This document shows, piece after piece, positions 6,698-61,068 of a stretch of DNA of 64,000 nt. The stretch's first letter is position 1, and the number at the start of each line of letters is the position of its first letter. This stretch comes from Bacillota bacterium (GTDB lineage: Bacteria > Bacillota_I > Bacilli_A > RF39 > UBA660). The position numbers were made by a program, and so were the translations under genes. The stretch is from contig SVAS01000001.1 in the NCBI GenBank assembly GCA_015059285.1, positions 256,217-320,216 on the forward strand, in the 5' to 3' direction. The notes beneath the pieces were generated by a model. It searched no databases, was not told the DNA's origin, and saw only the letters and a program-made list of their open reading frames with translations.

Positions 6698-6958
6698 ATG
6701 AAAATAGTAAAAATAAGCGCTATTTGGTGTGGTGGCTGTTTAGTTATGAATAAAGTATGGGAAAATATAAAAAGAAATTATCCTAGTATTGAGATAATTT
6801 CACTAGACTTTGATATGGATAGTGAAGAAGTTGAAAAATATAATGTAGGTGAAATTCTTCCTGTAACGATTTTTTATAAAAACGATAATGAGGTTAAACG
6901 TATAAATGGTGAAGTAAAAGAACAAGTATTAATAGATGTAATTGAGGAATTAAAATGA
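6698..6958 (+). CDS. Small thioredoxin-like protein (CGGC active site)
   Basis: 86 residues in a minimal thioredoxin fold. The redox motif WCGGC (Cys11 and Cys14) follows the first strand, and a cis-proline site is visible at ILPVTIFY. There is no signal peptide, so it is cytoplasmic. AGGTGAT precedes the start. It overlaps the next gene by 4 bases (ATGA), so the two are translationally coupled. The partner is a membrane thiol transporter, which makes this the likely cytoplasmic electron donor or acceptor for it. The partnership is inferred from coupling and family logic. Confidence 0.85.
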   Translation: MKIVKISAIWCGGCLVMNKVWENIKRNYPSIEIISLDFDMDSEEVEKYNVGEILPVTIFYKNDNEVKRINGEVKEQVLIDVIEELK

Positions 6959-8115
6959 AAATAAAAAACTATTTATTAATTTTTTTAACTATTTTATTGT
7001 TACCATTTATTGTTAATGCAAAATATAAAGATGTAGTTGCACCAATTGCAGGAATAGAAGCTAGTGAACAAGTAACTCTTTACTTATTTCATGGTGATGG
7101 ATGTCCTCATTGTGCTCAGGAACAAATTTTTCTTGATGAATTAAAAGCAGAATATAAAGATCAAATAAATATTATTAAATATGAAGTATGGCATAATTCA
7201 GATAATAATTTACTTTATAGTGAAGTTAAAAAGCATATGAATGCCAATCAAAATGGTGTACCTTTTACTGTAGTTGGAGAAAAGTATTTTTATGGTTATA
7301 ATACTTCAATAGGAGAAACTATTAAAGATACTATTGATAGTTATTTAAATCCTGAACTAGAAGAAAAAGAAGAAACAACAATTCCAATATTAGGAAAAAT
7401 AGATATGAAAAAAGTATCTATACCTATTGTAGCTATTGTACTAGGATTTTTAGATGGATTTAATCCTTGTGCTATGTGGATATTACTTTTCTTAATTAAT
7501 ATGCTTTTTAGTATGAAAAATAGAAAAAGAATGTGGTTATTAGGAGTTGCTTTCTTATTTACATCCGCATTTGTTTATTTCTTAGCTATGTTAGGACTTA
7601 ACGTTGTACTTTCATTTACAGCTGTTAATTGGATTAGAGCATTAATTGGAGTAGTTGCTTTAATAGGTGGAATAATCAATATTAGAAGTTATTTAAAAAC
7701 TAAAGATGATGGTTGTCATATAGTAGATGATAAAAAAAGAAAAAAATATTTTGCTAAAATAAAAGATTTTACTTCAAAACAAAGTCTAATATTATCATTA
7801 ATTGGAGTTATTACTTTAGCGGTTTCTGTTAATTTAGTAGAACTAGCTTGTTCAGCAGGTTTCCCAGCCATATTTATTGAACTATTAAATATTAATAACT
7901 TATCTTTTACTCAAGAAATAATTTATATTTTAATTTATATATTATTTTTCTTACTTGATGATTTAATTATATTTATAATAGCTATGACAACTTTAAAATT
8001 AACTGGTATTTCTACTAAGTATAATCGCTATTCACATTTAGTAGGTGGGGCTATTATGATAATAATGGGTATTTTATTAATATTAAAACCAGAATGGTTA
8101 ATGTTTAATTTTTAG
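6955..8115 (+). CDS. Exported thioredoxin-like domain fused to a CcdA/DsbD-type membrane electron carrier
   Basis: 386 residues: a signal or anchor sequence (1-22), an extracytoplasmic thioredoxin-like domain with CPHC (Cys50, Cys53), then a six-helix CcdA-like region from about residue 154. The paired membrane cysteines sit in GFNPCAMW (Cys172) and ELACSAGFPA (Cys299), at the places expected for relay of electrons across the membrane. DsbD and CcdA proteins pass reducing power from cytoplasmic thioredoxin to outside proteins. Here the acceptor domain is fused at the N-terminus and the cytoplasmic thioredoxin is the coupled gene upstream. The next gene downstream is a cysteine-containing prepilin, a possible client, although a terminator separates them. 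Confidence 0.85.
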   Translation: MKIKNYLLIFLTILLLPFIVNAKYKDVVAPIAGIEASEQVTLYLFHGDGCPHCAQEQIFLDELKAEYKDQINIIKYEVWHNSDNNLLYSEVKKHMNANQNGVPFTVVGEKYFYGYNTSIGETIKDTIDSYLNPELEEKEETTIPILGKIDMKKVSIPIVAIVLGFLDGFNPCAMWILLFLINMLFSMKNRKRMWLLGVAFLFTSAFVYFLAMLGLNVVLSFTAVNWIRALIGVVALIGGIINIRSYLKTKDDGCHIVDDKKRKKYFAKIKDFTSKQSLILSLIGVITLAVSVNLVELACSAGFPAIFIELLNINNLSFTQEIIYILIYILFFLLDDLIIFIIAMTTLKLTGISTKYNRYSHLVGGAIMIIMGILLILKPEWLMFNF

Positions 8116-8121
8116 ATAATT

Positions 8122-8148
8122 TGGAACACTTGATAGTGTTCTTTTTAT
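8122..8148 (+). terminator. Terminator of the redox operon
   Basis: GGAACACT / AGTGTTC stem, 4-base loop, then TTTTTAT. Confidence 0.85.
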
Positions 8149-8168
8149 ATGTGATTTATGTTATAGTT

Positions 8169-8214
8169 CTATTCTAAAGAGTAAAAAAATGTATAATAAA
8201 ACTTGTTAGAATAG
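8169..8214 (+). promoter_or_regulatory. Shared prepilin promoter cassette, copy 1
   Basis: A -10 TATAAT (8192-8197) is bracketed by a perfect 9-bp inverted repeat: CTATTCTAA (8169-8177) upstream and TTAGAATAG (8206-8214) downstream, just before the ribosome site. There is no consensus -35; the left arm takes its place. Nearly the same 75-base block precedes the prepilins at 13347 and 48593. It probably marks one regulon under a dimeric regulator (inference). Confidence 0.6.
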
Positions 8215-8224
8215 GAGTGAGATT

Positions 8225-9253
8225 ATGAAGAAAAAAGGTTTTACCTTAATTGAGTTGCTAGCAGTAATAGTAATACTAGCAATAATAGCGCTTATTGTAG
8301 TACCAGTTATTATGAATATAATAGCAAGTGCAAGAAAGAGTGCATTTGAGGATACTGCATACGGTATTATAAAAGCAGGAGAATTATATTATGCGAATGC
8401 ATTATTAAATGATGGAATGACTAGTGATGTAGAATTCACGTTTACAGAAGGAGCAGTTAGTCCAGAGGGGTTAAGTATCCAAGGTAGTTTACCACAAAGT
8501 GGAAAATTAGTAGTAACACGTGACGGAAAAACAGCCATAGCCATATCTAATGGAACATATTGTATAACAAAAGGATATGAAGAAAATAAAATAACAACAA
8601 CAGATGAATTTGAAACATGTGACTTACCAGCAGGTCCAGCAAAAACATTAAGCAAACTAGCAAAAACAAATGATTTTGCTGAAAGTGTAGATGCATGTGC
8701 AACAAGTGGAACATGTACAACAGGTACAAAATTTGCGATAGAAGTAGCACCAGGAAATATCCAAAATTTTTATGTAGTAAGTGATGAGAATAATACTGTG
8801 ACATTATTGATGAATAAAAACATAGGTGAAACGATGGCTTGGATAAATGAAACAGACTATCTAAATGCTGGAGGCAACCAAACTGATTGGAACAATTTTG
8901 AAAATATGAATGTATATGGTCCGATAACTGCATTAAATTATTTAGAAAGTCAAACGAACGATTGGACCAATATAGAGGCAAAAAACTACGTATTAACAGA
9001 TAGTGTATATGGAACTATGACAAGAACGAACGTAAGAGCAAGAATGTTAACTTTAATAGAAGCGAATGCGATAATTAGTTATGATTGGTCATATGGTAAT
9101 TTATATGATAATATTTTTGCTTATTGGTTAAGCTCAGCTAGTGAAAATTATTCTAGCGATGCTTCAGCTATGTTTGATGGTAGCGTTGGTAGTCGTGACG
9201 TTGGAAATGGCGATAATTTCGGTGTGCGCCCAGTAATAGAATTATCAAAATAA
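8225..9253 (+). CDS. Type IV prepilin with variable lectin-like C-terminus (pilin 1)
   Basis: 342 residues. The N-terminus MKKKGFTLIELLAVIVILA is a class III prepilin signal: basic leader, cleavage after Gly5, Phe at +1, Glu at +5, then a hydrophobic helix. The middle carries a domain shared by four proteins in this window: CATSGTCTTGTKFAIEVA, NIQNFYVVSD, a GPITALNYLESQT block and an RxNxRARMLT block. The C-terminal 45 residues (YWLSSASENY to FGVRPVIELSK) match the DUF6273/C-type-lectin-like tail and hold the hypervariable segment. The product should be a pilus subunit displaying a ligand-binding tip. GGAGTGA precedes the ATG. A terminator follows. Confidence 0.88.
   Translation: MKKKGFTLIELLAVIVILAIIALIVVPVIMNIIASARKSAFEDTAYGIIKAGELYYANALLNDGMTSDVEFTFTEGAVSPEGLSIQGSLPQSGKLVVTRDGKTAIAISNGTYCITKGYEENKITTTDEFETCDLPAGPAKTLSKLAKTNDFAESVDACATSGTCTTGTKFAIEVAPGNIQNFYVVSDENNTVTLLMNKNIGETMAWINETDYLNAGGNQTDWNNFENMNVYGPITALNYLESQTNDWTNIEAKNYVLTDSVYGTMTRTNVRARMLTLIEANAIISYDWSYGNLYDNIFAYWLSSASENYSSDASAMFDGSVGSRDVGNGDNFGVRPVIELSK
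9131..9232 (+). other. Candidate DGR variable region in pilin 1
   Basis: From the SSA codons to GVRP. The frame is intact and the ends are conserved with the other three prepilins while the interior differs at most codons. By hand count 47 of 102 bases are G or C, clearly above the surroundings. Several variable codons end in C (AGC, GAC, GGC, TTC), which is rare in this genome. No template repeat is visible in the window. Confidence 0.55.
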
Positions 9254-13275: not shown

Positions 13276-13290
13276 ATTTATGTTGTACTC

Positions 13291-13336
13291 CTGTTCTAGA
13301 GCTTAAAAGAATGTATAATAAAACTTGTTAGAATAG
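13291..13336 (+). promoter_or_regulatory. Shared prepilin promoter cassette, copy 2
   Basis: Same layout as upstream of pilin 1: left arm CTGTTCTAG (13291-13299), -10 TATAAT, right arm TTAGAATAG (13328-13336). The spacing between the TATTCT/TGTTCT and AGAATA hexamers is 32 bases, identical to the other two copies. The left arm has two changes from the perfect repeat. Confidence 0.55.
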
Positions 13337-13346
13337 GAGTGAGTTT

Positions 13347-14390
13347 ATGAAGAGAAAAGGATTTACCTTAATTGAGTTACTAGCAGTAATAGTAATACTA
13401 GCTATTATAGCATTAATAGCAGTACCAGTTATAATGAATATCATAAGTGAGGCAAGAAAGAGTGCATTTGAGGATACTGCATATGGAATTATTAGCGCAG
13501 GAGAAATGTATTATGCCCAAGCGTTATTAGATGGTGGAATGAAAGAAGAAACAACATTTGCATTCATAGAAGATGGAGTAAGTCCATCAGGATTAAATTT
13601 AAAAGGAACAACGCCAAAAAGTGGAAGTATGAAAATTACAATAGATGGAAAGATTGCTTTAGCTATTACAAACGGGACGCTGTGTATCAAAAAAGAATAT
13701 GATGATAGTGATATTGAAATATTAGAAGAATTTGAAATTTGTGAATTGCTATCAGAACCACAACCAGGGTCGTTAGCTTATTTAGCAAAAACAAATGAAT
13801 TTGCTGAAAGCATAGCACCCTGTGCAACAAGTGGTAAATGTGAACCGGGGACAAAATTTGCAATAGAAGTAGCCCCGGATAACATACAAAATTTTTATGT
13901 AATAAGTGATTTAGACAACATAGTGACATTAATAATGGATAGAAATATTGGAGATTTAATAGCGTGGATTAGTGAGCCAGATTATGGTTGTGGTGAAGTT
14001 GGTTATAAATGTTCAAAGAATGATAAAGGTCCAATTACAGCTTTGAATTATTTAGAGAGCCAAACCAAAGAATGGACAAACATCCCAGCAAAAACATATA
14101 TAGTACAAGATGAAAATAATCCTAAATTATATCCTGATATTGAAAGAGTAGGAGTTAGAACTCGTATGATTACAAGGGACGAAGCTAATGTAATCATTTC
14201 AAATGAGTGGGCATATGACAATTTAAGCTATGATGTTAAGCCCTACTGTTATTGGACAAGTACAGCTTATACTTTTTCAGGCGAAGCTCCAGACGATGCT
14301 CAGCTAGTTTGTTCTGGCAGCGTTGTATCTAATGCAATTCATTTCAATAATCGCTATGGCGTTCGCCCAGTAATAGAACTTTCAAAATAA
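13347..14390 (+). CDS. Type IV prepilin with variable lectin-like C-terminus (pilin 2)
   Basis: 347 residues. Prepilin leader MKRKGFTLIELLAVIVILA (cleavage after Gly5, Glu at +5). The first 60 residues are nearly identical to pilin 1. It carries the shared core with two CxxxGxC-type cysteines (CATSGKCEPGTKF), NIQNFYVISD, NIGDLIAW, GPITALNYLESQT and TRMITRDEANVI. The C-terminal tail YWTSTAYTFSGEAPDD to YGVRPVIELSK is the variable segment. It is a pilus subunit, transcribed from the shared cassette. It differs from pilin 1 by a 12-residue cysteine-containing insertion (DYGCGEVGYKCS) after the NIG block. Confidence 0.88.
   Translation: MKRKGFTLIELLAVIVILAIIALIAVPVIMNIISEARKSAFEDTAYGIISAGEMYYAQALLDGGMKEETTFAFIEDGVSPSGLNLKGTTPKSGSMKITIDGKIALAITNGTLCIKKEYDDSDIEILEEFEICELLSEPQPGSLAYLAKTNEFAESIAPCATSGKCEPGTKFAIEVAPDNIQNFYVISDLDNIVTLIMDRNIGDLIAWISEPDYGCGEVGYKCSKNDKGPITALNYLESQTKEWTNIPAKTYIVQDENNPKLYPDIERVGVRTRMITRDEANVIISNEWAYDNLSYDVKPYCYWTSTAYTFSGEAPDDAQLVCSGSVVSNAIHFNNRYGVRPVIELSK
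14259..14369 (+). other. Candidate DGR variable region in pilin 2
   Basis: The interval between conserved SSA/STA and GVRP codons. Hand count 49 of 111 bases are G or C. Variable codons such as GGC, GAC, AGC, TTC and CGC end in C. The segment is a few residues longer than in pilins 3 and 4. No template is visible in the window. Confidence 0.5.
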
Positions 14391-31407: not shown

Positions 31408-32181
31408 ATGGCAATTAGTAAAGGAAAAGTAATTACAGTTACATCTGTAAAAGGAGGAACTGGAAAAACAACAACGCTTTTAAATCTTGCTGGTATATAT
31501 TCTTTAATGGGTAAAAAGGTATTAGTTGTGGATTTTGATTTATATACAGGTGCTATAGCTGCTTCTTTAAATGTTGAAATTACAAACGATATTTATAAAT
31601 TGGTTGATGATTTGATGAATAATCGTTTTGATTATATAGAAAAATATGTGTTATCTTATAGCGAAAATATTCATGTACTAGCGTCTCCTAAAGACCCTAG
31701 ATATGCTAGTAAAATTAGTAGTAAATATCTAAAAATCATTTTAACTAGAGCTGCTATGAAATATGATATTGTTTTAGTTGATACTAATCATGCTTTAGAT
31801 GAAAAGAATTTAGTTACTTTAGATAATAGTGATGAAATTGTTTATGTTATTAATAATGATCCAATTGATTTAAAAAATATGAAAACAATAGTTTCTATTT
31901 ATAAAGATTTAGATAAAAAGAATTATAAAATAGTACTTAATGAATCTTTTGATAAATCTAGAAATTATTTTAACAAATATGATATTAAAAACATTATTAA
32001 AGACAATATAGACTATATTATTCCATCAACATTTTATATAAAAAATATTGATAAATATGTTTTGGATGCTGAAATATTAACTTTAAATAAACAAATTAGA
32101 AACACTCATAAAAAAGAAATTAAGAATTTTGAAAATTTGGCTAAAAATTTATTAAAAGAAGAGAGTAAGGTGAAAGAATGA
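31408..32181 (+). CDS. tadZ: TadZ/CpaE-like ParA-type ATPase
   Basis: 257 residues. A deviant Walker A is present: SVKGGTGKTTTLLNLA, with the signature Lys of the MinD/ParA family, followed by VVDFDLYTGAIA and a Walker B-like VLVDTNHALDE. TadZ/CpaE proteins place the Tad machine at its cell site. This copy lacks the N-terminal receiver-like domain found in some CpaE proteins. It precedes cpaF with a 4-base overlap (ATGA). Confidence 0.88.
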   Translation: MAISKGKVITVTSVKGGTGKTTTLLNLAGIYSLMGKKVLVVDFDLYTGAIAASLNVEITNDIYKLVDDLMNNRFDYIEKYVLSYSENIHVLASPKDPRYASKISSKYLKIILTRAAMKYDIVLVDTNHALDEKNLVTLDNSDEIVYVINNDPIDLKNMKTIVSIYKDLDKKNYKIVLNESFDKSRNYFNKYDIKNIIKDNIDYIIPSTFYIKNIDKYVLDAEILTLNKQIRNTHKKEIKNFENLAKNLLKEESKVKE

Positions 32182-33503
32182 AAAACTTAACGGATGAATT
32201 TAATATTAATATTGAAAATCCTACTTATGAAGAAGTTGTTGATTATGAAGCTTTTTCTAATAAACCTTTACTTGAAGAACTTAGAAATAAAATTATTCAA
32301 AATTTGATTGATAATCACATTAATAGTACTAAAAATTTAGATGAGTTTATAAAAACAGAAATAGATAAAACATTAGAAGGATATGATATTTCTAATGTTG
32401 AAAGAAGTTATTTATATAATTTGATTGATAATGAAATTAATGGTTTTGGTCCAATTACAGAACTAATGGAAGATAAAAGCATTACAGAAATTATGGTTAA
32501 TGGACCTGATGAAATTTACATTGAATTAGATGGTAAAGTAGTACGAGATAGGAGTGTATCATTTATTAATGATGATCATATAGTAAGAACTATTCAAAGA
32601 ATGATACAACCATTAGGAAGAACAATAGATTTAGCGAATCCAATGGTGGATGCTAGATTAGAAGATGGTTCTCGTCTTAATGCTGTTATTCCACCTCTAG
32701 CAATCCATGGGCCAGTTTTAACAATCCGTAAATTCAAAGAAGAGCTTGCTAATATTGATGACTTTTTAAGAAGCGGGACATTAACTCCATATATGGCACG
32801 TTTTTTAGAAGCTTGTGTACAAGCTAAATTAAATATGATTATTTGTGGTGGTACTGGTAGTGGTAAAACTACACTTTTAAATGTTTTATCTTCGTTTATA
32901 GGTAATGATGAACGTATTATTACAATTGAAGATGCTGCTGAACTTCGTTTAAAACAAAATCATGTTATTTCTTTGGAAACTCGTTTAGTTAATTACGAAG
33001 GACAAGGAGAAGTAACAATTCGTGATTTGGTTATTAACTCTCTTCGTATGCGTCCTGATCGTATTATTGTTGGTGAAGTTCGTGGAAAAGAAGCTTTTGA
33101 TATGCTTCAAGCTATGAATACAGGACATACAGGAAGTTTAACTACAATGCATGCTAACTCATCATATGATGCTTTAAATAGGCTTGAAACAATGATATTA
33201 ATGGCTGGAATGGAAATTCCTATCAAAGCATTACGTGAATATATAGAAAACGCTATTGATATAGTTGTTGAAGTAGAAAGATTAGGCGATGGTCGTCGTC
33301 GAGTAACCAATATTAGTGAAATTGTTGGTTTTAAAGATGATGTTATAGAATTAAAAAGAATATTTGGTTTTACACAAACAGGACTTTTAGATAATGGGGA
33401 AGTAAAAGGAGAATTTATTTTAGAGGATTATATACCTAAAGTATATGGTAAAATTAAATCTCATGGTATAGATTCATTAAAAGATATTTTTGAAAATAGG
33501 TGA
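32178..33503 (+). CDS. cpaF: TadA/CpaF secretion ATPase
   Basis: 441 residues, hexameric motor for Tad pilus assembly in the cytoplasm. Marks: [15 protein letters not shown] (N-terminal domain), Walker [27 protein letters not shown] (Asp box), [18 protein letters not shown] (Walker B) and [15 protein letters not shown] (His box). All catalytic motifs are intact. It follows tadZ with overlap and precedes the tadB-like fusion by 4 bases. Confidence 0.96.
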
Positions 33504-33507
33504 TATT

Positions 33508-35019
33508 ATGAATGAAAGAATTGATAGTTTAAATATTGCTAGTCAAATTAAACCTATCAATAAAGACATAATAGTTGAATATACACCTAGTACTAACGTT
33601 GTAAGTTATAGTTATACTCTTTATAAAAATGAAGAAATTATAGATACTTATAACTCTAATACTAATAAAAAAACATCTATTATTATGGATGAGACGGGTG
33701 TATATAAAATTGTTATAAAAGAGATAGATAGTAGTGGTAAAGAAATAACTTTAAATAGTGGTTTTTATAATATTGATAAAGAAAAACCTATTATTGAAGT
33801 TAGTGAGCAACTACTTACTATGGAATTAGGAGATAAATTAGATTTATTTTCTGATGTTAAAGTAACTGATAATTTTGATGGTAATTTAACTAATAAAATT
33901 ACTACTAATTATAATGAGTTAGATTTTAATACAACCGGTATTAAAAAACTTGTTTATACAGTTTCCGATGAAGCAGGTAATATAGCTAGTAAAACAGTTA
34001 ATATTAATGTAGTAAGTAATGTAACTGATAGTTTAATTTATATTCAAATTGGTATTATTACAATACTAATTGCTATTTTATATCTACTTTTATCTTTTAG
34101 AAGAAGTGTTAATTTAGAAAAAAGAATTAGTAAATTTAGTATTAAACCTATCAAAGATAATTCTCTATCTCTATTTGATAATATCTTGAAATTTTATAAA
34201 AATTTAGTTTCAAAAATATCAAATGTTATTTCAAAATCAGTATTCATTCAAAAATATAGTAAAAGATTTGAAAAATATTTATCACTTTCTAAACACACTC
34301 ATAGTAGTGCTATAGACTTTGTGTCATCTAAATTGATTATTGGTTTTTCTTTCGTTTTGATGGCAATTTTCTCTAAAACAATTCAGTATCAAGTATTAAG
34401 TATTTATGAGGTATGTATCCCTTTTCTTATTGGTTTCTTTGTTTTAGATATTATCTATTTTTCTAAATATAAAATTTATAGAAATAAAATTGAAAATGAT
34501 TTACTTCAAGCAATAATTGTTATGAACAATGCTTTTAAATCTGGTAGAAGTATTACTCAAGCAATTGAACTTGTTACAACTGAATTAGATGGTGAAATTG
34601 CTTTAGAATTTAGAAAAATGAATATGGAACTTAGTTTTGGTTTAGGAATAGATGTTGTATTTGATCGTTTTGCTAAAAGAATAGATTTAGAAGAAGTTAC
34701 TTATCTAACTGCATCTCTTTCAATTTTAAATAAAACAGGTGGAAATATTATTAAAGTATTTTCATCAATTGAAAGATCTTTATTTAATAAAAAGAAACTT
34801 AATTTAGAATTAAAAGCGTTAATTGGTTCTTCAAAAATAATTGCTTATGTATTATTCTTTGTTCCAATATTCTTTATTATATTAGTAAGCTTAATTAATC
34901 CAAATTATTTTGCAGCTTTCTTTACTAATCCAATAGGTATAGTAATGCTTATATTTATGATAGTTTATTACATTACTTATATAGTAGTTGTTAATAAAGT
35001 AATGAAAGTAAGGATGTGA
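33508..35019 (+). CDS. tadB: TadB platform protein with N-terminal Ig-like ectodomain
   Basis: 503 residues. The C-terminal 300 residues are a T2SSF/TadB domain (AIIVMNNAFKSGRSITQAIE, FGLGIDVVFDRFAKR, LTASLSILNKTGGN) with several membrane helices. The first 170 residues are two beta-rich Ig-like modules; the second (about 95-168) resembles DUF5011 (DNFDGNLTNKI, FNTTGIKKLVYTVSDEAGN). A membrane helix at 175-197 is followed by RRSVNLEKR, so by the positive-inside rule the Ig modules face outward, although no signal peptide precedes them. Such an ectodomain is not a normal part of TadB. GGTGAT precedes the ATG at 33508. Confidence 0.88.
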   Translation: MNERIDSLNIASQIKPINKDIIVEYTPSTNVVSYSYTLYKNEEIIDTYNSNTNKKTSIIMDETGVYKIVIKEIDSSGKEITLNSGFYNIDKEKPIIEVSEQLLTMELGDKLDLFSDVKVTDNFDGNLTNKITTNYNELDFNTTGIKKLVYTVSDEAGNIASKTVNINVVSNVTDSLIYIQIGIITILIAILYLLLSFRRSVNLEKRISKFSIKPIKDNSLSLFDNILKFYKNLVSKISNVISKSVFIQKYSKRFEKYLSLSKHTHSSAIDFVSSKLIIGFSFVLMAIFSKTIQYQVLSIYEVCIPFLIGFFVLDIIYFSKYKIYRNKIENDLLQAIIVMNNAFKSGRSITQAIELVTTELDGEIALEFRKMNMELSFGLGIDVVFDRFAKRIDLEEVTYLTASLSILNKTGGNIIKVFSSIERSLFNKKKLNLELKALIGSSKIIAYVLFFVPIFFIILVSLINPNYFAAFFTNPIGIVMLIFMIVYYITYIVVVNKVMKVRM

Positions 35020-35023
35020 TAAT

Positions 35024-35725
35024 ATGAATAAATCAGAAAATAGAATAATTAGAAAAATTTATCGCAGTAAAGACATAGAACAAATAGAAGAAAAAATTGC
35101 TATGTTAGGTAATACTAAATTAGATGCTATTACATTTATGAACTTTAGAATTATCTCTAGTTTAATTGTTTTTCTTGTTACTATTTATGTTACTAATTTA
35201 GGATATATTTATGCACCGTTTATTACTTTAGCTTATTTTTATTTATATTATTATTTACTTATTCAATCACCACTTAAACAAAGAATAAAAAGATTGGATC
35301 GTGAAGCTCTACATTTTTTTGAAATTTTAACACTTACTTTGGAATCTGGGCGGAATTTAGAAAATTCTTTAGAAGTAACAGTTGCGAATGTTAATTCTGA
35401 ATTATCAAATGAATTTAGAAGAGTGCTATTTGAAGTGAAATTTGGAAAATCTTTACTTGAAGCTTTAGAAGATATGAAAAAAAGAATGCCTTCCGAAACT
35501 ATTAATAACATTCTTTTAAATATTACTCAAACAGATGTGTTTGGTAATAGTATATTAGAAACAATGTATAATCAAATTGATTTTTTAAGGGACAAACAAA
35601 TATTAGAGATTAAAGGAGAAATTAATAAAATTCCTAATAAAGTTAGTATTATCTCAGTATTATTTGTTGTTCCACTTATATTAATGCTTATTTTAGGACC
35701 ATTTATTATTAATTTTTTAGGTTAA
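35024..35725 (+). CDS. tadC: TadC platform protein
   Basis: 233 residues, second T2SSF-type membrane protein of the Tad machine. Two N-terminal helices (about 38-75), a cytoplasmic domain with FFEILTLTLESGRNLENSLE and RVLFEVKFGKSLLEALEDMKK, NITQTDVFGNSILETM, and a C-terminal helix. It pairs with TadB in the inner-membrane platform driven by CpaF. Starts 4 bases after tadB. Last gene of the operon; murC follows with its own promoter. Confidence 0.92.
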   Translation: MNKSENRIIRKIYRSKDIEQIEEKIAMLGNTKLDAITFMNFRIISSLIVFLVTIYVTNLGYIYAPFITLAYFYLYYYLLIQSPLKQRIKRLDREALHFFEILTLTLESGRNLENSLEVTVANVNSELSNEFRRVLFEVKFGKSLLEALEDMKKRMPSETINNILLNITQTDVFGNSILETMYNQIDFLRDKQILEIKGEINKIPNKVSIISVLFVVPLILMLILGPFIINFLG

Positions 35726-39403: not shown

Positions 39404-39409
39404 TAAAAT

Positions 39410-39586
39410 ACCTAGAAGATACGGTAGCTTTTATGAAAAACCTACTAAATTAACGTATTGGGAATCTAATTTACAAATGGTGTTGAATGCTTAAATTTAT
39501 TTAGGAATCCTTAAATTTGTAATGTGATACCCACCTGGGAGATCAGGTTTTAATCGTTAATGGCGCCGATCATCTGGGTTTTTTAT
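39410..39586 (+). ncRNA. ssrS: Probable 6S RNA
   Basis: About 170 bases with no reading frame, its own promoter and a terminator. The 5' end (ACCTAGAAGAT...) can pair with the 3' end (...GATCATCTGGGT), closing the molecule. Inside, TTACAAAT (39472 region) pairs with ATTTGTAA (39515 region) as a long apical arm with a large open region beside it, and a small hairpin ACCTG/CAGGT (39534-39547) lies on the 3' side. This resembles the 6S RNA that holds sigma-A RNA polymerase. As I recall, in B. subtilis a 6S gene also neighbours the tcdA (yrvM) gene that follows here. A covariance-model search would settle it. Confidence 0.65.
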
Positions 39587-48515: not shown

Positions 48516-48536
48516 TTGGTTATTTATGTTGTACTT

Positions 48537-48582
48537 CTATTCTAAAAAGTAAAAGGATGTATAATAAAATTTGTTAGAATAG
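48537..48582 (+). promoter_or_regulatory. Shared prepilin promoter cassette, copy 3
   Basis: Perfect 9-bp inverted repeat CTATTCTAA (48537-48545) and TTAGAATAG (48574-48582) around TATAAT (48560-48565). Hexamer spacing (32 and 10 bases) is identical to copies 1 and 2. Confidence 0.6.
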
Positions 48583-48592
48583 GAGTGAGTTT

Positions 48593-49636
48593 ATGAAGAA
48601 AAAAGGGTTTACATTAATAGAGTTACTAGCAGTAATAGTAATACTAGCAATAATAGCGCTTATCGCAGTACCAGTTATAATGAATATAATAACAAGTGCA
48701 AGAAAGAGTGCATTTGAAGATACTGCATATGGACTAATAAGTGCTGGGGAAATGTATTATGCTCAGGCTCTATTAGAAAATGGAATGGCCTCAGATGTAG
48801 AGTTCACAATTGAAGATGGAGAATTTGTTGGAACAAATAAACTAGAAGTAAAAGGATCACTTCCATCAAGTGGTAGTATTAAAGTTACACGAGATGGTAA
48901 AGTAGCGATAGCTATTTCAAATGGAGCAATGTGTATAACAAAAGGATACGATGATAGTAAAATTGATCCAGAAACAGATTTAGATAATTGTGAATTACCT
49001 AAAGAACCTGCAAAAACATTAAGTGAATTAGCAAAAACAAATGACTTTGCTACAAGTGTAGATGCATGTGCAACAACAGGTACATGTGCAGTAGGAACAA
49101 AGTTTGCAATCGAAGTAGCGCCAGGAAATATCCAAAACTTCTATGTAGTAAGTGATGCTAGTAATAAAGTGACATTACTAATGGATAGTAATATAGGTGA
49201 AGCAGTAGCTTGGATAACAAAAACAGATTATTTAACTGCAGGAGGAACAGAAGCAGAATGGGATACAGGATGTGATGAATGTGGTAACAATAATAAAGGC
49301 CCAATCACAGCCTTAAACTATTTAGAAAGTCAAACAAGTGGATGGATAAATATAGCACCTCAGGACTATACATTAACAGACAGTAAATATGGAACGATGA
49401 CAAGAACAAATGCACGTGCTAGAATGTTAACAGAAACAGAAGCAAACGCAATAATTAGTAACGATTGGTCATATGGGAATTTATCTCAACCTCCATATGG
49501 ATACTGGACAAGCTCTGCTCGTGCGGACGTTGCTGACGGCGTTTGGTTCGTGAGCTACGGCGGTGGCGTTGCCGAGACCAGCGTCGACTATGACTACGAC
49601 ATCGGTGTGCGCCCAGTTATCGAAATATCAAAATAA
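48593..49636 (+). CDS. Type IV prepilin with variable lectin-like C-terminus (pilin 4)
   Basis: 347 residues. Leader MKKKGFTLIELLAVIVILA, cleaved after Gly5, Glu at +5. The core is shared with pilins 1-3 (CATTGTCAVGTKFAIEV, NIQNFYVVSDASN, GPITALNYLESQT, NARARMLTETEANAI). It has an inserted pair CDECGNNN after the NIG block. The tail YGYWTSSARADVADGV to IGVRPVIEISK is the variable segment and has base composition unlike the rest of the gene. It is expressed from the shared cassette and followed by a terminator and a related membrane protein. Confidence 0.9.
   Translation: MKKKGFTLIELLAVIVILAIIALIAVPVIMNIITSARKSAFEDTAYGLISAGEMYYAQALLENGMASDVEFTIEDGEFVGTNKLEVKGSLPSSGSIKVTRDGKVAIAISNGAMCITKGYDDSKIDPETDLDNCELPKEPAKTLSELAKTNDFATSVDACATTGTCAVGTKFAIEVAPGNIQNFYVVSDASNKVTLLMDSNIGEAVAWITKTDYLTAGGTEAEWDTGCDECGNNNKGPITALNYLESQTSGWINIAPQDYTLTDSKYGTMTRTNARARMLTETEANAIISNDWSYGNLSQPPYGYWTSSARADVADGVWFVSYGGGVAETSVDYDYDIGVRPVIEISK
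49511..49615 (+). other. Candidate DGR variable region in pilin 4, strongest case
   Basis: 105 bases. By hand count 66 are G or C and only 15 are A, in a genome where A and T dominate. Eighteen of the 35 codons end in C (GAC, GGC, TTC, AGC, TAC, GCC, ACC, GTC, ATC). This is the pattern expected if AAC codons of a template were changed at the two adenines while the C stayed. The length equals that of pilin 3. Confidence 0.65.
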
Positions 49637-59671: not shown

Positions 59672-59697
59672 AAAAAAAGCTATTTCTAGCTTTTTGT
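59672..59697. terminator. Bidirectional terminator between pilD and pilB
   Basis: AAAAAGCTA / TAGCTTTTT stem with a TTTC loop. Confidence 0.8.
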
Positions 59698-61068
59698 AAC
59701 TTCTTCTAATAGTTTATCAATGGCAGGAATATTATCTTCATTTTCTTCTTTGTCATCTTTTTTATTTTTGTCTTTTATTTTACTGTCGTTATTTTTCTTA
59801 TCATCTTTATTATCTTCTGAAGTACTATTAGCTATATTAGTATAATCAATTGCTTCTTGTAAACCATATTTTTCAACTTTTTCATCATCTTCAAGTTCAA
59901 TCAGTTTTAATAATTCTTCAAAAGTAGTAAGACCATTAGCAACTTTTTCAAGACCATCTTGAAGTAGAGTAATAACTTCAGATTGATATACTAACTCGCG
60001 CAATTCTTCTTTTTTTACACCACTACTAATTGCATCTTTGATTTCTTGATTAATAAGTAATACTTCATGAATAGCAATACGACCTTTATAACCATTTGCA
60101 CATTCATCACAAGTTTCAGCAGAATATATTTCATCTACATCTTTATTTAAAATTTCTTTAAATAATTTTTTTTCATATTCATTAGTTTTTCTAAGTTTAC
60201 GACATTTTGGACATAAACGACGAGCTAGTTTTTGAGAAATAATTCCTGTAATAGCACTTGATAATAAATATCTTTCAACTTCCATATCAAGTAAACGCTC
60301 AATAGTATTTAATGAATCGTTAGTATGTAGTGTTGATAAAACTAAGTGACCTGTAATAGAAGCTCTAACGGCAATTTTAGCTGTTTCTGTATCACGAATT
60401 TCCCCAATCATTATTATGTTAGGGTCTTGACGTAAAATTGAACGAAGTGCAGTTGCGAATGTAAGACCAATTTCACTATTTGTTTGAATTTGGTTAACCC
60501 CTTCAATATCCATTTCAATTGGATCTTCTACAGTAATAATATTTGTGTTTTCTTTATTTAGTTTTTGTAAAATAGAGTAAACAGTAGTTGATTTACCACT
60601 ACCGGTAGCTCCAGTTACTAAGATAATACCATTAGGAACATTAATCATTTTTAAAACTTTTAAATAATTTGCTTCACTAAATCCTAAATGTTCTAGTCCG
60701 CTTAAACTCATAGAATAATCTAGAATACGAATAACGACTTTTTCACCGTTACTAGTAGGAATAGCAGAAACACGAAGATCTAGATTAACATCTTTTAAAG
60801 TAGCTTTAATAGCACCATCTTGAGGCAATCTGCTTTCTGTAATGTTCATTCCTGAAATAATTTTAATACGAGTAATTAAATTTTTCTTAAATGTATTAGG
60901 AATTTCAGCATAATCTTGTAAATCACCATCTATACGAATTCTAACTTTCATATATTTTTCATATGGATCAAAGTGAATATCACTAGCGCCTTTTTTTGCT
61001 GCATCTACTAATATATCATTAACTATTTCAACAATAGGCATTTTCTCAAAATCAAACATTTTTAACAT
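59686..61068 (-). CDS. pilB: PilB/GspE extension ATPase
   Basis: 460 residues. Hexameric motor of type IV pilus extension. ASDIHFDPYEKYMKVRIRIDG, RLPQDGAI, LRVSAIPTSNGEKVVIRI, Walker A VTGATGSGKSTTVYS, Asp box TVEDPIEMDIEGVNQIQ, Walker B ALRQDPN-type (SILRQDPNIIMIGEIRD), His box TGHLVLSTLHTND, and the zinc tetracysteine CPKC/CDEC. The N1 domain is missing and a low-complexity Asp/Lys/Asn tail of about 60 residues is added at the C-terminus. No PilT retraction ATPase is seen. It is opposite to, and convergent with, pilD, and divergent from two prepilin genes. Confidence 0.95.
   Translation of the reverse strand: MLKMFDFEKMPIVEIVNDILVDAAKKGASDIHFDPYEKYMKVRIRIDGDLQDYAEIPNTFKKNLITRIKIISGMNITESRLPQDGAIKATLKDVNLDLRVSAIPTSNGEKVVIRILDYSMSLSGLEHLGFSEANYLKVLKMINVPNGIILVTGATGSGKSTTVYSILQKLNKENTNIITVEDPIEMDIEGVNQIQTNSEIGLTFATALRSILRQDPNIIMIGEIRDTETAKIAVRASITGHLVLSTLHTNDSLNTIERLLDMEVERYLLSSAITGIISQKLARRLCPKCRKLRKTNEYEKKLFKEILNKDVDEIYSAETCDECANGYKGRIAIHEVLLINQEIKDAISSGVKKEELRELVYQSEVITLLQDGLEKVANGLTTFEELLKLIELEDDEKVEKYGLQEAIDYTNIANSTSEDNKDDKKNNDSKIKDKNKKDDKEENEDNIPAIDKLLEEVTKS

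Follow-up and report, generated by a model that had tools for sequence, protein, structure and literature searches.

The three genes starting at positions 8225, 13347 and 48593 of the analyzed window (64,000 nucleotides; contig C3:256217-320216) encode prepilins with a type IV class III signal, GFTLIE, and a hydrophobic stretch (PF07963, TIGR02532), for which Pfam and NCBIfam profiles gave no C-terminal domain. The source genome comprises 1,037,214 bases (~1.04 Mb) in 5 contigs and is an incomplete assembly (95.6% complete). Further along the window lies the gene for a PilB/GspE-type pilus assembly ATPase, the probable motor for these prepilins, and a Tad-like operon (31408-35725) encodes a ParA/MinD-type ATPase, a TadA-like ATPase and two T2SSF membrane proteins. 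When known RNA leaders were sought in the window with Rfam, only 6S RNA (39406-39584; RF00013, 79.9 bits) and two tRNAs were found.

Direct reading bore out the initial annotation in that about 70 bases upstream of the three prepilin genes are nearly identical, with 32 bases between TATTCT and AGAATA, 10 bases between TATAAT and AGAATA, and no -35 consensus, as a TTGACA-like -35 is absent from the three window cassettes. The 9-bp inverted repeat ascribed to all three is exact in two, while the 13347 cassette has CTGTTCTAG as its left arm; these 2 exact matches in the window compare with 0.03 expected from shuffles. The individual elements are listed in Table 1.

Table 1. Prepilin loci and associated features in the window. 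Promoter and pairing elements are predicted.
Feature	Position	Strand	Remarks
Intrinsic terminator of the upstream gene (ORF 6955-8115)	8124..8146	+	Hairpin GAACACTTGATAGTGTTC + TTTTT; ends just 5' of the cassette; T-run 9 nt from box1
Box1 TTATGTTATA, putative upstream half of the promoter of 8225	8156..8165	+	
Left arm TTCTATTCTAA of 8225 (putative anti-Shine-Dalgarno)	8167..8177	+	~-37..-27
TATAAT, predicted -10 element of 8225	8192..8197	+	Unvarying in 18/18 type A copies
Right arm TTAGAATAGGA of 8225	8206..8216	+	Overlaps Shine-Dalgarno AGGAG (8213-8217)
Prepilin, 342 aa, PF07963, drifted gene of the retroelement (DGR) lineage	8225..9253	+	VR-like 3' end ~9132-9233
Box1 TTATGTTGTA of 13347	13278..13287	+	
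Left arm TCCTGTTCTAG of 13347	13289..13299	+	Inverted repeat inexact; all RNA pairs retained as G.U/G-C
TATAAT, predicted -10 element of 13347	13314..13319	+	
Right arm TTAGAATAGGA of 13347	13328..13338	+	Over Shine-Dalgarno
Prepilin, 347 aa, DGR-lineage gene	13347..14390	+	VR drifted
Box1 TTATGTTGTA of 48593	48524..48533	+	
Left arm TTCTATTCTAA of 48593	48535..48545	+	
TATAAT, predicted -10 element of 48593	48560..48565	+	
Right arm TTAGAATAGGA of 48593	48574..48584	+	Over Shine-Dalgarno
Prepilin, 347 aa, probable recently diversified DGR target	48593..49636	+	Judged from VR vs TR
Variable repeat (VR) of prepilin 48593	49512..49616	+	105-nt ungapped alignment with the template repeat (TR) on contig C1
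PilB/GspE-type pilus assembly ATPase	59686..61068	-	PF00437, 428 bits; TIGR02538, 488 bits, under its cut-off of 676

A search of the organism's own genome with window segment 8150-8330 returned 40 places of prepilin-related DNA, and 36 full-length long prepilin genes (324-533 aa), dispersed over ~1 Mb, were extracted. Their upstream regions are of three kinds with unrelated sequences: type A (18 copies, the window's three included; 66-69 nt from box1 to ATG), type B (16 copies; ~190 nt) and type C (2 copies; ~185 nt). Two additional type B copies, L037 and L038, are truncated at contig ends and are not counted among the 16. The cassette is thus real but not restricted to the three genes at which it was initially described. 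Type A upstream DNA on its own gave 18 genomic matches, every one before a prepilin, and outside its own genome it had no match among 84,980 species, a set in which the own genome is possibly not included. The genome-wide search suggested by the initial annotation, run as TATTCT-N30-34-AGAATA, hit seven places, five at prepilins and two elsewhere. An invertible (phase-variable) promoter was also considered and rejected, all 18 type A copies being in one orientation. Two small tandem prepilins of 139 and 132 aa without a VR (L013:2845 and L039; C3:64.6-65.2 kb of the source genome, G000) have an ordinary TTGACT-N18-TATACT promoter and are perhaps the major pilins.

Types A, B and C are alike only in TATGTTRTA-N25/26-TATAAT, the first half of which is here called box1. 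Searched genome-wide as TATGTTRTA-N23-27-TATAAT, this motif gave 36 matches, always with a spacer of 25 or 26, and 33 of them lie before prepilins; the reversed-pattern control had no match in the genome. Of the other three, one lies before the gene for a zinc-ribbon protein, one before a sigma factor gene and one before the gene for a small protein that looks like a nucleotide pyrophosphohydrolase in our own reading, made without a family match. The sigma factor (L073, C3:33.2 kb; PF04542, 246 aa) is of the sigma-70 type, has box1-N26-TATAAT 43 nt before its start, and is a candidate regulator of the prepilin set. For a sister species (G001), the looser pattern TTATRTWATA-N22-28-TATAAT yielded 35 matches vs 6 in the control, with different intervening sequences; 30 matched places were examined, and nine were flagged as lying before prepilins, with a spacer mode of 25-26. 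Inspection by eye added one further prepilin (L199) and three lipoprotein-prepilin loci (L200, L201, L212), apparently operons, in which the double-box motif is followed first by one of three near-identical lipoprotein genes and then by a prepilin. The near-exclusivity of the motif to prepilins and its enrichment before those of the sister species support the common control of dispersed pilins proposed initially. Judged from these comparisons, the conserved unit is a predicted bipartite promoter without a -35 box, not the inverted repeat. Type B leaders (L018-L033, L035, L037, L038) also contain a second predicted promoter, with TTGACA and ATTTATGTTATAAAAT.

The predicted position of box1, ~-47 to -38, is the usual site of a class II activator or a proximal UP element. 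Box1 also resembles the organism's ordinary extended -10, TTATGTTATAAT, which is found before other genes of the window, in one case 16 bp from a TTGACA, and copies L016 and L017 have a perfect TGTTATAAT; box1 might therefore be an extended -10 promoter itself, with the mRNA starting in or before the left arm and the hairpin serving as a regulated leader in every transcript. However, the hexamer at box1 is TGTACT in 10 of the 18 type A copies, so that the critical second A of a -10 hexamer is replaced by G, whereas the downstream TATAAT never varies (18/18), and the transcription start was for this reason placed just after TATAAT. A start 6-8 nt past box1 would moreover fall inside the left arm and leave no stem, and the fixed spacing of 25-26 to TATAAT would go without explanation, which together make this reading unlikely. 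It is possible, on the other hand, that box1 is a UP element for the alpha subunits of RNA polymerase, aided by the neighbor's T-tract and operating without a dedicated activator. Its position, its A/T-richness and the T-run directly 5' of it in nearly all copies agree with such a role, but the strictly kept G in TATGTT and the near-confinement to one gene family suggest a specific protein.

The inverted repeat is confined to type A, and the sister species appears to lack it. As RNA, it amounts to 11 bp between TTCTRTTCTAA and TTAGAATAGGA, covering the Shine-Dalgarno (SD) sequence AGGAG, and copies with GTAC gain one pair. At the true register 90.4% of cells were paired, compared to 42-56% when the register was slid, and the RNA fold of copy 1 had a z-score of -3.45. 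Among the 14 copies with the canonical right arm, all five types of left-arm substitution retain pairing on the mRNA strand vs two of five on the other strand; only 6 of the 33 possible left-arm changes would do so, giving p ~0.0008 for five out of five (with the transition bias taken from the neighboring spacer). Compared with column shuffles no compensation was apparent, since there is little variation in the right arm, and double compensations are almost missing; the pairing evidence is accordingly one-sided, consisting of wobble on the left arm. The type A spacer-to-SD duplex had a mean energy of -14.1 vs -7.5 kcal with shuffled spacers (15/18 copies with p<0.05), and good pairing is missing in type A copies L004, L016, L017 and L026 and in several type B copies. 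Arm-to-SD pairing in type B was weak by simple duplex energy (5/14) and became clear only with whole-leader folding, and for type C folding gave no SD pairing. The type B repeats TGTCAAT/ATTGACA and GAACAAT/ATTGTTC do not reach the SD.

A terminator adjoins nearly all of these leaders: in all 18 type A copies the T-run of the same-strand neighbor's terminator ends 2-9 nt before box1, and most type B and C copies likewise follow such a T-run (exceptions L024, L028 and L035). Relative to the predicted start of the TATAAT promoter, the left arm spans -37 to -27, and the gene's own mRNA would therefore lack it, making folding possible in read-through transcripts only. Type B spacers contain CCACTT, which is complementary to the type B GGAGTGG. 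When whole leaders were folded, the probability of an unpaired SD in type A read-through RNA averaged 0.19 vs 0.37 with the arm shuffled; the type B values were 0.20 in read-through RNA, 0.55 with only the spacer shuffled, and 0.65 in the own transcript. Seventeen of 30 type A and B copies individually reached p<=0.05 for predicted SD sequestration in longer transcripts, with clear exceptions, and as copies within a type are related these values are not independent. With an anti-SD arm predicted to be present only in read-through and terminators just upstream, only read-through transcripts would fold and hide the ribosome site; most type B leaders are predicted to act likewise through other sequences. 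The repeat is thus likely an insulator against translation of the neighbor's read-through, and the same predicted effect arising from two unrelated sequences (A and B) is, with due caution for the kinship of copies, the best argument for function.

The relationship between leaders and coding regions was also compared. Promoter type changed 14 times on the protein tree, against a mean of 13.6 for shuffled labels; the tree is blurred by coding-region exchange, and direct gene pairs do not depend on it. Pairs such as L024/L034 and L013/L029 mostly share 85-100% identity over the gene body, falling to ~0.5 just 5' of the ATG, and identity at N-terminal four-fold sites was the same within and between types (0.712, 0.709 and 0.714). 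Since promoter type is uncoupled from coding lineage, the genes appear to have been reshuffled at the start codon and not simply duplicated, and the collapse of identity just before the ATG indicates that coding regions were exchanged between upstream contexts.

These data bear on two further readings, both related to proposals of the initial annotation. One takes the repeat as an operator, where a regulator binding both arms around the -10 would repress or activate the prepilin regulon, as might be expected since the two arms stand on either side of the -10 with constant spacing where copies are best conserved and since the cassette is confined to prepilins. However, just 5 type A copies out of 18 contain the exact 9-bp repeat, the substitutions favor mRNA-sense pairing over symmetry (G.U pairs are retained and the right arm lies over the SD), and the ~37 bp between arm centers is unusual for one dimer. 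The site is furthermore absent from several type A copies and from both other types, and apparently also from the sister species, and a protein-binding site is consequently disfavored; we regard an operator as quite improbable, and the repeat fits RNA pairing better, given its 11-bp extension over the SD and the pattern of substitutions. The other proposal, a spread of the cassette along with the genes through duplication, did not hold as stated, promoter type being independent of coding lineage and near-identical genes having unrelated upstream DNA. In its extreme form, the similarity of cassettes would reflect recent gene duplication alone with nothing under selection, and the paralogous family with its similar N-termini is in line with this. 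Yet identity between copies is 0.845 for cassette A, compared with 0.71 when four-fold sites in the conserved N-terminal part are counted and ~0.6 for the rest of the genes, the boundary of similarity is sharp at the ATG, and prepilins of the sister species also have the motif with other sequence in between, so that duplication alone is highly implausible.

The sole reverse transcriptase (RT) match in the genome (C1:25815-27014; PF00078, 66 bits) adjoins an 82-aa Avd-like ORF (PF22296 bAvd, 34 bits, below the cut-off of 40), and these, together with a 105-nt TR, adjoin prepilin L036. Near the C-terminus of the prepilins lies a VR ending in GVRPVIE. In eight prepilins the VR differs from the TR at 19-26 of 37 adenines and at 0-5 of 68 other positions (Fisher 6e-9 to 3e-16). 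For L024, L032 and L035, 21-26 adenines and none of the 68 other bases are changed, and L029 is similar with two additional 3-nt gaps; non-adenine differences number one in L034, two in L036 and five in L013, while 48593 is changed at 24/37 adenines and 3/68 other bases (Fisher 2e-11). The remaining prepilins form a drift gradient, 8225 differing at 20/68 non-adenine positions. This pattern strongly suggests that the prepilins are targets or former targets of a diversity-generating retroelement (DGR), at least eight of them with adenine-specific changes. An AlphaFold prepilin model, made from the three window sequences, had a pLDDT of 42, too low to judge a C-type lectin fold. About 100 nt beyond the stop codon are shared by seven of the eight genes with a fresh VR (L013, L024, L029, L032, L034, L035 and L036); this element has a small hairpin, AAGAAATCTTTGATTTCTT, and was found only in genes with a VR close to the template, and 48593 lacks it despite its fresh VR.

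Of the family's 145 genomes, 63 contain relatives of the RT; those named are uncultured Bacilli and Tenericutes MAGs and Candidatus Onthousia, and an adenine-biased repeat pair was present at 48 of 104 RT loci. At one of these, L098 of an uncultured Tenericutes MAG, the target is likewise a prepilin. Judging by the relatives (L075-L178), this Bacilli family is rich in DGRs, which mostly target large surface proteins with GVRPV/AVRPV-like ends, not prepilins.

A dedicated promoter and a retroelement of the prepilin family are strongly indicated. The whole model, which joins these to a fold-back insulator and reshuffling at the gene start, we hold to be somewhat probable. According to it, the cassette would be the unit by which a scattered prepilin family linked to the DGR is expressed. 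Transcription would begin a few bases past the unvarying TATAAT and depend on box1 being bound by an activator or by RNA polymerase alpha subunits. The type A repeat would act as a fold-back translational insulator with the left arm as the anti-SD segment: transcripts passing the neighbor's terminator would carry this arm, its pairing with the SD would block translation, and type B leaders would reach the same outcome through CCACTT and GGAGTGG. The prepilin genes would be present or former targets of one retroelement, their coding parts being swapped between upstream contexts via recombination at the conserved gene start.

More tentatively, one retroelement may feed ~36 separately promoted putative adhesin-pilins, with a box1 activator switching all of them, fold-back leaders sealing the individual genes, and start-codon recombination moving fresh coding regions, in what could be an antigenic-variation-like system in a small-genome bacterium. 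Judging by open papers, little seems known about the expression of DGR targets or about how one template serves many genes, and the anatomy described here gives both in one genome, combining a common promoter motif, a putative insulator made by two sequences, targets that grade from fresh to retired, and reshuffled promoter contexts. The regulation and turnover of retroelement targets thereby become testable, and the findings suggest rapid evolution of the surface pilins in this uncultured Bacilli lineage with its small genome.

Parts of this arrangement have parallels in known systems. In fold-back inhibition of the IS10 and IS50 transposases, the ribosome site is masked by an inverted repeat only when the transcript has entered from outside, as is predicted here; unlike in those elements, the prepilin leaders would guard dispersed chromosomal adhesin genes, and no terminal repeats or transposase were seen beside the prepilins. 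Recombination likewise reshuffles a pilin gene family in the pilE/pilS antigenic variation of Neisseria, whereas every copy described here is a full gene with a promoter of its own, and a retroelement would supply the point diversity. For DGRs, the report on Treponema denticola TvpA describes several remote VR genes supplied by a single RT and a single TR, with 2-7 targets per genome, and interprets some additional targets with excess mutations as older ones (PMC4891356). The remote VR genes, the single RT and TR, and the adenine-specific VR changes are shared with the system as described there, while the 36 paralogues (at least eight fresh) over ~1 Mb, the prepilin targets, the common promoter motif and the reshuffled upstream regions set the present one apart from that description. 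Type V tip pilins of Bacteroides are DGR-diversified lipoproteins according to work cited in PMC12632263, and the two cases are alike in that a DGR acts on pilus proteins of gut bacteria; unlike those lipoproteins, the targets found here are type IV-like prepilins with a GFTLIE signal, and they occur in Bacilli.
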